DNA of 13,555 nucleotides from a bacterium (GTDB taxonomy: Bacteria; AUK180). The position numbers and the translations under genes are program-made. Shown here piece by piece: positions 6,975 through 10,538 of the stretch (its first letter is position 1; every line of letters begins with the position of its first letter). The stretch is taken from contig JAUXGM010000051.1 in the NCBI GenBank assembly GCA_030622125.1, positions 1 to 13,555 of the forward strand, given 5' to 3'. Under the pieces are notes generated by a model. It was not told where the DNA came from and made no database searches. It worked only from the letters and a program-made list of their open reading frames with translations.

Positions 6975-6996
6975 GTGCCGGGGTGGTGTTTTTTTT
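6964..6996 (+). terminator. Weak candidate terminator at the convergent gene junction
   Basis: CCGGC (6964-6968) and GCCGG (6977-6981) form a 5-bp GC stem with an 8-nt loop across the Nif3 stop codon. A run of eight T follows at 6989-6996. The gap of 7 nt between stem and T-run is longer than in standard intrinsic terminators, so the call is tentative. On the minus strand the same stem lies past the end of the convergent gene but has no T-run. Confidence 0.35.
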
Positions 6997-8986
6997 ACCT
7001 TATTACCATAAACTTCCCTGTTGCGTCTTTTGAACCGTCATCATAAATAACTCTGAAAATATAGGCACCGGGAGCAATAAATTGCCCTTTATCATTATTT
7101 AGATTCCATGATTCATCGGCATCGTTATCGGTATGATATATCGTTCTAATCTTTAATCCCGATATTGTATATACTTTAATGGTGCATTTTCCAATCAAAT
7201 GAATAAAGTCAACCTTCTTTGAGGATGTTGCCCATGTTGTATACTCTCCTTCAATATACGGGTTCGGAACAATCTCAACCTTACCTTTATATTCTTTCGG
7301 CGTTGATTCACTATACCAGGCAGGTGTAACGGACTGTACATTTGCGATCGCCGAGGAATAAGCAGGGTCAATATTTTGTGACCTGTCGCCTCTGTCATAA
7401 GCACATACAGAGTAATAATAGGTAAAGCCGTTGAAGATTGAAGGATCATTATCCGTATATTCACAAAAATATGTTTCTGTCCAATTTTTTGGATTAAGCT
7501 CTCTTTCAGGGATCGGCTCTCCTTTAATAAGGTCATAAGCATACGGTGGTTCATTAAAGGTATTATAAATATAAGTAGAATCCATCTGTGTTACAAGAGC
7601 ATAATCGCCTAATTCAATATCGCCCATTCCTGTTAGATTTCTATAAACTCGGTAACCATCCCAGTCATGTATCCCGGAACCGGGAGGATCCTCTGATGCC
7701 TCGGAACCAATTGAATATTCAGGGGAAGGATCCGCGTCTTCCGTATATGAACCATTTAAACCACCAGGAAGAGGTTTTGGAATATAATTTCTATTTCTTG
7801 ACCATCTAAGATCTACCTTTTTATTTCCGGGCTCAGTCATAAGAAATGGTGACTCGGGCGGAGGATTGGGAATTATCCAATTATTATCATGTACCTTTCT
7901 CGCTGTTTTGACATTCTGCTTGAATTTTGAAACATCATATCCCATAGGATTTGCCCAGGCTATCTCTACCGTAGCTCCTGATGGAAGTGAAAATGGACCA
8001 AGCCCCATCAACATTAAAGCATCGTGTGGTTTTTGATTGCTTTGGTCAATTAGGTCACTTGTGATAATATTCCAAAAATAAGCATCCGACCAATCACCAG
8101 CAGTATCATAACTCAGATCAAAATTACAGCTCTTAATAGAAGAAATATCAAAGACGGTTACGCCTACTACGCCTAATTCTTCCTTGTTGGGACAATAAGA
8201 ATATGCAGTGCCCGTTTCGGGATCAAAGAGTGAAACATTGTGAGCAAAATTATTCCAATCAACATCAGGATCCATAAAAATCCCTACATAAAATTCATTA
8301 TAATTATTTTCAGAGTTATTTTGAAGTGTTACAATATGAATATTAAAAGCATCTGCATTGGGATAATTCCATCTTAATGTTCGGACATTACCACTAACTT
8401 CGAGAGGGTTTTTGCTAAAAGAATCATCAAAGAACGACATATAATCAGACTGAGAGAGATTATCCATTTGTTCTATATTTATTGAAGTAAAGTAGTAACC
8501 GTAAAAACTTGTTAAGCCCTTGTATTTTTGAGGATACGGAACAAGAGATTCTTCGGGTGACTGAATATCTCCATCCCATTCAAAATCCGAAACAATGCCG
8601 TTTGCCCCCCACATAATATTATGGTCGGTTACCATCTGGCTCATTTCATGTTCTCCTAAATTCTTCGGATACTGCCAACCGGCAAAATATGGTGCCCAGC
8701 CGCCCGACCATGGCGCCCATGCAAGTAATCCGAACCACCAGCAATTTGTACCTACCGTTATCGCATAATTGCCGAAACAATCATTATACATTGATGCCCG
8801 TAATGATACCCATAAATAATCATAAGGAATGACATAAGAACAAAAATAGAACGGACTTTTACCGTCATATTCTTTAAAACAGGTAAGAAGTTCAGCTTTT
8901 TTATATGGTATCGACTTTGTAACGGATGATACACAAATTAAAACAAATAGGAATAGGATTAAGAAAAAAAATACTTTTTTACTCAT
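6995..8986 (-). CDS. Large secreted protein with FlgD/T9SS-like C-terminal Ig domain
   Basis: A 663-residue protein from the chosen ATG at 8986; an in-frame ATG at 8998 would add MNLY. I chose the inner start because the outer ATG overlaps the only good -10 box. A long hydrophobic stretch (VFFFLILFLFVLICV) forms a signal peptide without a proper lipobox. The mature N-terminal half is rich in Trp, Tyr and Asp, including six Trp within about 22 residues near 83-104. A fibronectin-III-like segment begins near PPPESPFLMTEPGNKKVDLRW. The last 97 residues form a C-terminal domain with VEIVPNPY, a strand CTIKVYTISGLKIRTI and the ending GAYIFRVIYDDGSKDATGKF. This matches secretion/anchoring domains (T9SS type A or FlgD-like) in FCB-type bacteria. 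It is probably a surface or secreted structural/adhesive protein. No enzyme motif was recognised. Confidence 0.8.
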   Translation of the reverse strand: MSKKVFFFLILFLFVLICVSSVTKSIPYKKAELLTCFKEYDGKSPFYFCSYVIPYDYLWVSLRASMYNDCFGNYAITVGTNCWWFGLLAWAPWSGGWAPYFAGWQYPKNLGEHEMSQMVTDHNIMWGANGIVSDFEWDGDIQSPEESLVPYPQKYKGLTSFYGYYFTSINIEQMDNLSQSDYMSFFDDSFSKNPLEVSGNVRTLRWNYPNADAFNIHIVTLQNNSENNYNEFYVGIFMDPDVDWNNFAHNVSLFDPETGTAYSYCPNKEELGVVGVTVFDISSIKSCNFDLSYDTAGDWSDAYFWNIITSDLIDQSNQKPHDALMLMGLGPFSLPSGATVEIAWANPMGYDVSKFKQNVKTARKVHDNNWIIPNPPPESPFLMTEPGNKKVDLRWSRNRNYIPKPLPGGLNGSYTEDADPSPEYSIGSEASEDPPGSGIHDWDGYRVYRNLTGMGDIELGDYALVTQMDSTYIYNTFNEPPYAYDLIKGEPIPERELNPKNWTETYFCEYTDNDPSIFNGFTYYYSVCAYDRGDRSQNIDPAYSSAIANVQSVTPAWYSESTPKEYKGKVEIVPNPYIEGEYTTWATSSKKVDFIHLIGKCTIKVYTISGLKIRTIYHTDNDADESWNLNNDKGQFIAPGAYIFRVIYDDGSKDATGKFMVIR

Positions 8987-9024
8987 ATATAAATTCATTA
9001 TACTTAAATTTGCTTTTTTTTCAA
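8987..9024 (-). promoter_or_regulatory. Promoter of the secreted-protein gene, near-leaderless
   Basis: On the minus strand TTGAAA (9024-9019) is followed by a 16-bp spacer and TATAAT (9002-8997). The predicted transcription start is about 8991-8989, only 3-5 nt before the ATG at 8986. The upstream in-frame ATG (8998-8996) shares bases with the -10 box and so would not be in this transcript. No Shine-Dalgarno precedes either ATG. Confidence 0.62.
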
Positions 9025-9095
9025 TATGTTTTTGAAAAATCTCAGAAACATATTGGATTTTGCTTGTAAAAAAATTCGGTATTTAAATAATAATA

Positions 9096-9326
9096 TTAAC
9101 CACAGATTAGACAGATTAAACAGATTAAAAATAATAGAAAATATTTAAAATTAATCTTTAAATTTTCAGTTATGAAATGAAATTTCATTATTTTAAATCT
9201 TTTTAATTATTAGAAAATTAATTTTCTACTTAAAAAAAAGATTTAATGAAAAGTGATTTAGTAAAATCACTTAAACTGAAAATTTAGGACTTTAAAATCC
9301 GTGTAATCCGTACAATCCGTGGTTAA
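9096..9326. repeat. 231-bp inverted-repeat (MITE-like) element with nested hairpins
   Basis: The ends are imperfect inverted repeats of about 34 bp (26 of 34 positions identical). Each starts TTAACCAC and carries three 9-bp direct units, CAGATTAGA-like on the left and ATCCGTGTA-like on the right. Inside is a perfect 12-bp stem, AAATTTTCAGTT (9160-9171) with AACTGAAAATTT (9274-9285). Within that lie three hairpins: palindrome 9176-9189, stem 9195-9204/9235-9244 topped by the 18-bp palindrome 9211-9228, and stem 9251-9259/9264-9272. The folded form is a three-armed cloverleaf. There is no ORF inside, so it would be non-autonomous or a structured repeat. TTAA at each end may be a target duplication or part of the repeat. 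It sits between two divergent promoters. Confidence 0.75.
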
Positions 9327-9393
9327 AAAATCTTATTTGGTAAAAAAACTGTTTTTAAAAAAAGTCCAAAATATATTGAAACACGACAGTTTT

Positions 9394-9428
9394 TTGACAT
9401 AAAACAAATAATAGTTTATAATAATAAT
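9394..9428 (+). promoter_or_regulatory. Consensus sigma-70 promoter, predicted leaderless
   Basis: TTGACA (9394-9399), a 17-bp spacer and TATAAT (9417-9422) match both consensus boxes exactly. Only six bases separate the -10 box from the ATG at 9429, so transcription should start at the A of the start codon or within a base of it. There is no Shine-Dalgarno. The next in-frame ATGs, at 9438 and 9453, are also without a Shine-Dalgarno. Confidence 0.82.
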
Positions 9429-10538
9429 ATGAATGAAATGAACTCAAAAAAAATGCCAAGATTAAAGATCGGCGATCTTGAGATTAAAATACCTATTGTT
9501 CAAGGAGGAATGGGTGTTGGTATTTCTTTGTCAAGATTAGCCTCGGCTGTTGCAAAAATAGGGGCTATTGGTGTTATAGCAGCGGCAGGGATCGGCATGC
9601 TTGAACCCGATTTTAGTACAAATTTCAAAGAAGCAAACAAAAGAGCCTTGAGAAAAGAAATAAGAAAAGCAAAAGAAATGACAAATGGTATTATCGGAGT
9701 CAATATAATGGTTGCTTCCTCGGATTTTAATGAGCTTTCACTTGTAGCTATAGAAGAAGGTGTAGATCTGATTTTTCTTGGGGCAGGTCTTCCACTAAAT
9801 GATCCCAAAACATTAGTATTGGATAGATTGAGAAAAATTCCTACAAAAGTTGTTCCTATTGTATCTTCTGCAAAAGCTGCTAATATTATATTTAAATATT
9901 GGGCAAGACATTACAATCATGTGCCTGATGCTGTGGTTGTTGAGGGACCTTTAGCCGGAGGACATCTTGGTTATAAAAAGGAACAAATAAACGACCCTAA
10001 TTATAAATTGGAGAAAATACTTCCAGAGGTTATTTCAGTAATAAAAACTTTTGAGCAACAATTTAATAAAAACATTCCGGTAATTGCAGCAGGAGGAATA
10101 TACTCCGGAAAAAATATCTATGAATTTATTCAAATGGGTGCTGATGGCGTACAGATGGCTACCAGATTTGTAGGCACATATGAGTGCGATGCAGATGTAA
10201 AATTCAAAGAAGCATATGTAGAATGCAAAAAGGAAGATTTAATTTTAATTGATAGTCCTGTTGGCTTGCCGGGAAGAGCAATACGAAACAAATTTATAGA
10301 TGATGTATCCGCAGGTATGAAGAAACCTTTTAAATGTTCCTGGCAATGTCTGAAAAGTTGCGATTTTAAAAATTCGCCATATTGTATTGCACTTGCATTA
10401 ACCAATGCGAAAAAGGGAAATATGGATGAAGGCTTCGCTTTTGCAGGAGCTAACGCTTATAAAACGGATAAAATCATTTCTGTTAAAGAATTGTTTGAAA
10501 CCTTACTGTTAGAGTATGAAAAGGCAGCATCTATATAA
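9429..10538 (+). CDS. NAD(P)H-dependent flavin oxidoreductase, nitronate monooxygenase family
   Basis: A cytoplasmic FMN-binding TIM-barrel enzyme of the nitronate monooxygenase / 2-nitropropane dioxygenase / FabK group. The start IPIVQGGMGVGIS (residues 18-30) is the classic N-terminal FMN loop. GGHLG (177-181) carries His179, at the position of the catalytic His in nitronate monooxygenases. AAGGI (220-224) and GVQMATRFV (240-248) are the phosphate-binding end. The family also includes enoyl-ACP reductases (FabK), so oxidation of nitronates versus reduction of enoyl-ACP cannot be settled here. The C-terminal part has four Cys at 303, 307, 311 and 319 (CX3CX3CX7C). It is a single-gene unit with its own consensus promoter and no Shine-Dalgarno. 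Confidence 0.88.
   Translation: MNEMNSKKMPRLKIGDLEIKIPIVQGGMGVGISLSRLASAVAKIGAIGVIAAAGIGMLEPDFSTNFKEANKRALRKEIRKAKEMTNGIIGVNIMVASSDFNELSLVAIEEGVDLIFLGAGLPLNDPKTLVLDRLRKIPTKVVPIVSSAKAANIIFKYWARHYNHVPDAVVVEGPLAGGHLGYKKEQINDPNYKLEKILPEVISVIKTFEQQFNKNIPVIAAGGIYSGKNIYEFIQMGADGVQMATRFVGTYECDADVKFKEAYVECKKEDLILIDSPVGLPGRAIRNKFIDDVSAGMKKPFKCSWQCLKSCDFKNSPYCIALALTNAKKGNMDEGFAFAGANAYKTDKIISVKELFETLLLEYEKAASI

Follow-up and report, generated by a model that had tools for sequence, protein, structure and literature searches.

The 231-base element at positions 9096-9326 of the window, by which we mean the whole 13,555-nucleotide stretch of bacterial DNA analysed here, is probably a non-autonomous, MITE-like mosaic relative of elements whose inverted end arrays surround GxxExxY genes, which code for a PD-(D/E)XK-nuclease-like protein. 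Its ends belong to the same class as the ends of GxxExxY cassettes, and copy number together with this shared end type argues for mobility. Between its ends lies no gene; the payload there, one four-way cloverleaf or two, would be folded DNA.

Anatomy and surroundings of the window copy

The element begins with TTAACCAC and finishes with GTGGTTAA, and each end carries three 9-bp units, as the original prediction held; the units form inverted arrays with the consensus TTAACCAC RGATT NNACRGATT NNACRGATT. The A/G difference between the ends that was noted at the same time, CAGATT on the left and CGGATT on the right, is real in this copy and also in most of the others. A 128-bp four-way cloverleaf (CL1, 9159-9286) lies inside these ends. 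Its closing stem, described earlier as a perfect stem of 12 bp, is indeed perfect but is 13 bp long (9159-9171 with 9274-9286), and it encloses the three separate palindromic arms that had been recognised, here placed at 9172-9188, 9196-9243 and 9251-9272. That this nesting is too regular for chance was confirmed by folding z scores of -8.7 for the plus-strand RNA, -11.8 for the minus-strand RNA and -9.2 for DNA, with no shuffled sequence folding as well. There is no ORF of at least 80 aa in 9096-9326, and the window gave no Rfam match, rRNA included. The features are as follows.

8997-9024, minus strand: outward-facing sigma-70-like promoter (TTGAAA-16-TATAAT) of the left gene
9032-9069: outer left module (TTGAAAAATCTCAGAAACATATTGGATTTT...), repeated by promoters in this genome and in G002, a second genus of the family, at some places with no element beside it
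9070-9347: practical extent of the repeat, common to most dispersed copies (blastn of 8800-9700 against about 55 copies)
9096-9127, plus strand: left end, 'A-type', TTAACCACAGATTAGACAGATTAAACAGATTA, that is TTAACCAC and three 9-bp units (CAGATTAGA CAGATTAAA CAGATTA)
9128-9158: spacer on the left, probably what remains of a second cloverleaf, CL2 (comparison with the copies on C25, C62, C82, C109 and C122)
9159-9286: core cloverleaf CL1, a four-way junction (fold, covariation and model search)
9159-9171, plus strand: CL1 closing stem, 5' arm, TAAATTTTCAGTT, pairing with 9274-9286 with 100% complementarity
9172-9188, plus strand: hairpin 1, ATGAAAT..ATTTCAT, one compensatory pair
9196-9243, plus strand: hairpin 2, nested, an outer stem around AGAAAA..TTTTCT, three compensatory pairs in two stems
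9251-9272, plus strand: hairpin 3, AAGTGATTT..AAATCACTT, three compensatory pairs
9274-9286, plus strand: CL1 closing stem, 3' arm
9296-9326, minus strand: right end, 'G-type', AATCCGTGTAATCCGTACAATCCGTGGTTAA, the left-end array inverted, with CGGATT units
9348-9396: outer right module (...TTTTTAAAAAAAGTCCAAAATATATTGAAACACGACAG...), also a repeat, forming an imperfect inverted copy of the left module
9394-9422, plus strand: outward-facing sigma-70-like promoter (TTGACA-17-TATAAT) of the nitronate monooxygenase-family gene

The outer edge of the repeat is not TTAA..TTAA, as sequence common to the copies goes past both ends, to about 9070-9347. In the blastn comparison, the number of covering loci steps up from 5 to 15 at position 9070 and drops from 22 to 10 across 9340-9350, and in a sub-family of copies the shared sequence runs from about 9032 to 9396. 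The inverted ends themselves reach beyond 9096-9326, because similarity persists in the AT-rich stretches just outside TTAACCAC, between AAATAATAATATTAACCAC on the left and AAATAAGATTTTTTAACCAC, read as reverse complement, on the right. The exact boundary is blurred by this sequence common to copies outside the ends, and the copies may have spread by recombination.

The divergent, leaderless promoters that were predicted to flank the element are both consensus matches and both can be leaderless, and the window copy sits between them without interrupting either. An outer module is present without the element on another contig (C52). The motif TTGAAAAATYTCAGAAACATATTGGATTTT (window 9032-9061; L205, L207, L209, L225-L227) adjoins promoters of unrelated genes in two genera, and it also lies upstream of a G002 relative of the window's sodium:solute symporter. 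The minus strand of the window encodes, at 6995-8998, a protein of 667 aa whose start resembles a signal peptide and which matches nothing in Pfam or NCBIfam.

Copies, modularity and position

Copies exist elsewhere, as had been anticipated, both in the element's own genome (G000) and in the second genus. Comparison of the region with the 2.08-Mb genome returned 67 matching stretches, some of them being the palindrome aligned with its own opposite strand. The end motif, counted with up to two mismatches, occurs 61 times in this genome (28 forward, 33 reverse) and its backward control not once; CL1 is found as 13 full-length and 6 shortened cloverleaves. Whole and partial copies are mostly 75-98% identical, and many contigs of the MAG begin or stop within a copy, which is expected because assemblies break at repeats. 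G002 holds four CL1 copies, some lacking the left array and each with one CRGATT end or none, and the element is wholly absent from three of the four relatives in the family. A covariance model of the core had no match in the 39 searched genomes besides G000 and G002, an exact-pattern scan of genome contigs for a 36-bp core piece had none either, and a text search of papers for the letters of the repeat gave nothing relevant among the matches listed.

The element is modular, with CL1, CL2 or both held within the same ends. CL1 stands alone in the window copy and on C122, C57 and C184; the 401-bp copy on C62 combines CL1 with CL2, which has three hairpins of its own; CL2 is joined to CL1 on C25; and CL2 stands alone between the usual ends on C82 (about 230 bp). 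Comparison with these copies suggests that the left spacer of the window element is probably the scar of a lost CL2. On C43 CL1 is inverted between otherwise normal ends, as it is in eight others, and over all copies in which an end and CL1 are joined the two orientations number 17 and 9. At several loci there is a single end only, or the filler is of another kind altogether, gaggttagagg-type arrays for example (L015, L045).

Further arrangements were seen around these copies. CL2 with its three hairpins, with or without CL1, follows window-type ends on C62, C25, C82, C109 and C8 (L028, L013, L234, L107 and L041, respectively). A linker, AATCCRGTATTTAAATAATAATATTA (L229, L230, L233, L219), is succeeded by end arrays that differ by place (ACCACAGATT, ACCACAGAGCAC, CACCGCAGAGACGC), and a recurring stretch, GTGTCCCGGACTCTTCATTAGATAACGATAGACCACCCG..., adjoins many of the elements (L044, L081, L093, L220, L221).

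Neither an empty site nor a target-site duplication was found, the neighbourhood of the window copy not being conserved in the family: there is no synteny around the nitronate monooxygenase gene in G001, G003 or G004, and a search of G002 did not recover the gene. A search with the joined flanks gave one-sided matches and two weak (70-72%) spanning matches, on C49 and C39, the former of which was not counted as an empty site since it looks like a deletion derivative. With respect to genes, 32 of the 48 ends with an ORF within 500 bp face a 5' end and 16 a 3' end, a rough count made with a simple ORF caller. G-type ends lie on the 5' side of genes in 20 cases versus 5 on the 3' side, many of them at roughly 90-130 bp from the ORF.

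End arrays shared with GxxExxY cassettes

Strong inverted repeats flank 25 of 38 GxxExxY genes from diverse genomes, in comparison to 2 of 73 control positions taken from other parts of these loci (300-bp flanks, score at least 30; Fisher p = 3e-13); by this score the other 13 of the 38 genes have none. Most of the flank repeats consist of a short array whose units measure 9 or 10 bp (ACCACAGAG-type, CCGCCGATGAA-type and CCACAGATTACGCAGATTTCG-type), and CRGATT, or a unit close to it, makes up the arrays at L131, L277, L286, L287, L294 and L296. CRGATT units surround GxxExxY genes in other genomes only. The one intact GxxExxY gene of the element's own genome (L049; PF13366, E 4e-43) lies between ACCGCAGAAACGCAGAGATCGCAAAG and, inverted, ACCGCAGAGACGCAGAGGTCGCAAAG, the units of which are CGCAGAG and not CRGATT but obey the same grammar. 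This cassette of about 480 bp with array ends (L049:1432-1910, on C46) lies exactly at the junction of wzm/wzt-like ABC-2 permease and ATPase genes.

GxxExxY genes are present in all nine of the tested genomes that bear the exact CRGATT end motif versus 14 of 55 without it (p = 3e-5), an association that could in part reflect a bias of both toward large, repeat-rich genomes. Relative to the cassettes of this family (GxxExxY/PDDEXK_3; TIGR04256, PF13366), the window element obeys an identical end grammar and shares the CRGATT unit with those of several genomes; it differs in being gene-less and in carrying cloverleaves. No GxxExxY ORF lies within it; encoding no such protein, it is therefore at most a non-autonomous relative. 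We found no published description of these cassettes, or of the end-array rule of GxxExxY genes, in the open-access literature.

A comparable rule applies to the four-helix-bundle, or 23S IVS, protein genes (TIGR02436), which lie between inverted arrays of 7-bp units in 16 of 24 cases against 0 of 46, with a lag-7 periodicity of 0.54 compared to 0.09. This agrees with the tandem heptamers GACAGAT of the Coxiella 23S rRNA intervening sequence (PMC4990558). Inverted 7-bp-unit arrays accompany TIGR02436 and PF05635 genes at L159-L188 in several genomes (L167 in the own genome), and G014 has about 20 four-helix-bundle matches, most of them in opposite-strand pairs a few hundred bases apart. The intervening sequences with an S23p/four-helix-bundle ORF (Coxiella, PMC4990558) are, like the window element, small, with terminal inverted repeats and tandem short units near an end. 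They differ in having 7-bp units, in lying within rRNA and in being excised by RNase III; the window element is intergenic, between protein genes, and is gene-less with 9-bp units.

The serious rival to the MITE-like reading, albeit an unlikely one, is a passive mosaic repeat that arises by slippage, gene conversion and recombination between short palindromes, with no protein recognising its ends. Such processes would account for conserved outer flanks that combine with several different end arrays at one junction, for a CL2 seemingly deleted across its stem base in several copies, and for inversion of the core through the 13-bp perfect inverted repeat. They would not readily account for an identical 9-bp end grammar, the exact motif occurring in 11 of 193 genomes and its backward control in none, nor for arrays that flank one gene family in genomes sharing no other part of the repeat.

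It is improbable that the copies are REP- or REPIN-like elements moved by a RAYT or by an IS200-type single-strand transposase that recognises hairpins. The own genome does have four Y1-transposase-family genes, and RAYTs are the proposed movers of GTAG-tagged palindromic repeats (PMC3733652), which like the window family are palindromes scattered between genes and presumed to move in trans. The families differ in size, ends and position bias, however, and ours has no link to Y1 loci: the CRGATT end array was absent from the fetched flanks of all 30 Y1 loci inspected. Our elements are units of 230-400 bp with array ends, not hairpins of 20-40 bp with an unpaired GTAG or CGTC tag, and the only GTAG in the window element falls within a paired stem, on the minus strand of hairpin 2. 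They also prefer the 5' sides of genes (32:16), whereas REPs are mainly located downstream of coding regions (PMC3733652).

Conservation of the cloverleaf

In an alignment of nine cores from the own genome and four from G002, for which RNAalifold gives 42 pairs, eight base pairs have changed on both sides, and these are spread over all helices. Shuffled controls average 1.6 such pairs, with none of 500 reaching eight, and slid controls give at most three. The compensatory changes between copies that the original prediction had looked to are hence present, and because of them we regard the cloverleaf fold as being under selection; with two genera only, this evidence is good but not overwhelming.

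The same prediction had taken the A/G differences as a sign that the structure may be maintained in a minus-strand RNA, a view that our data do not support. The core occurs in both orientations, the mismatched pairs of the plus strand comprise 8 A-C versus 4 G-U (the reverse on the minus strand) with no significant preference, and the promoters point outward. Transcripts from the neighbouring promoters do not contain the element, because both point away from it. The A/G difference of the ends is a matter of common descent and gives no independent support for RNA. A strand-specific regulatory RNA is unlikely given the variable orientation, the mismatches that favour neither strand and the outward promoters, and a structure needed as DNA fits better than one needed as RNA. 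More broadly, a functional structured RNA or regulatory leader common to many genes would suit the strong folding, the compensatory changes and the preference of G-type ends for gene 5' sides (20:5). Yet with the core lying both ways round (17:9), so that its structure is conserved without a fixed strand relative to the surroundings, and with no G-U strand preference, outward window promoters and no Rfam match, we consider this highly improbable. Least probable of all is a cis-acting DNA element (a supercoiling sink, nucleoid-protein site, insulator or UP-element) selected between divergent promoters, which would agree with the 32 of 48 ends that face a gene 5' end, the many G-type ends some 90-130 bp from an ORF and the outer modules recurring by promoters in two genera, but which leaves 16 ends facing gene 3' ends and three of four family relatives without the element, while selection against promoter disruption would give an equal location bias.

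Discussion

Our findings favour a MITE-like element, having no coding capacity, terminal inverted repeats and many dispersed copies. In common with bacterial MITEs it is short, gene-less, A+T-rich, intergenic, of high copy number and strongly folding. It departs from them in that its ends are arrays of 9-bp units, it carries a conserved four-way cloverleaf in which compensatory changes have occurred, and neither a target duplication nor a transposase with identical ends was found for it in its own genome. Under the MITE-like reading, the copies would have dispersed through something resembling transposition or homing, with recognition of the end arrays as a step in it. The recognising protein would be supplied in trans, most simply as a GxxExxY protein, though this step taken alone we hold to be doubtful. 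The cloverleaf may act as single-stranded or extruded DNA, perhaps in lagging-strand replication, and not as RNA.

We tentatively propose that the nuclease-like GxxExxY proteins (9-10-bp units) and the four-helix-bundle IVS proteins (7-bp units) may define a class of minimal mobile elements that is widespread and ends in short tandem arrays, the period of which is set by the protein family. The window element would belong to it as a member without a gene, multiplying in trans and bearing a DNA cloverleaf under selection. If this is true, GxxExxY, an obscure family of unknown function, would gain a role in recognising tandem-unit inverted ends and moving short elements, even gene-less ones, and the 'ACCACAGAG...' and 'ACCACGGATT...' repeats that recur across genomes of different families would be explained. 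The 7-bp rule of the 23S IVS protein would then unite two unexplained families under one design, and the cloverleaf would be a clear instance of compensatory change preserving a secondary structure of DNA and not of RNA.
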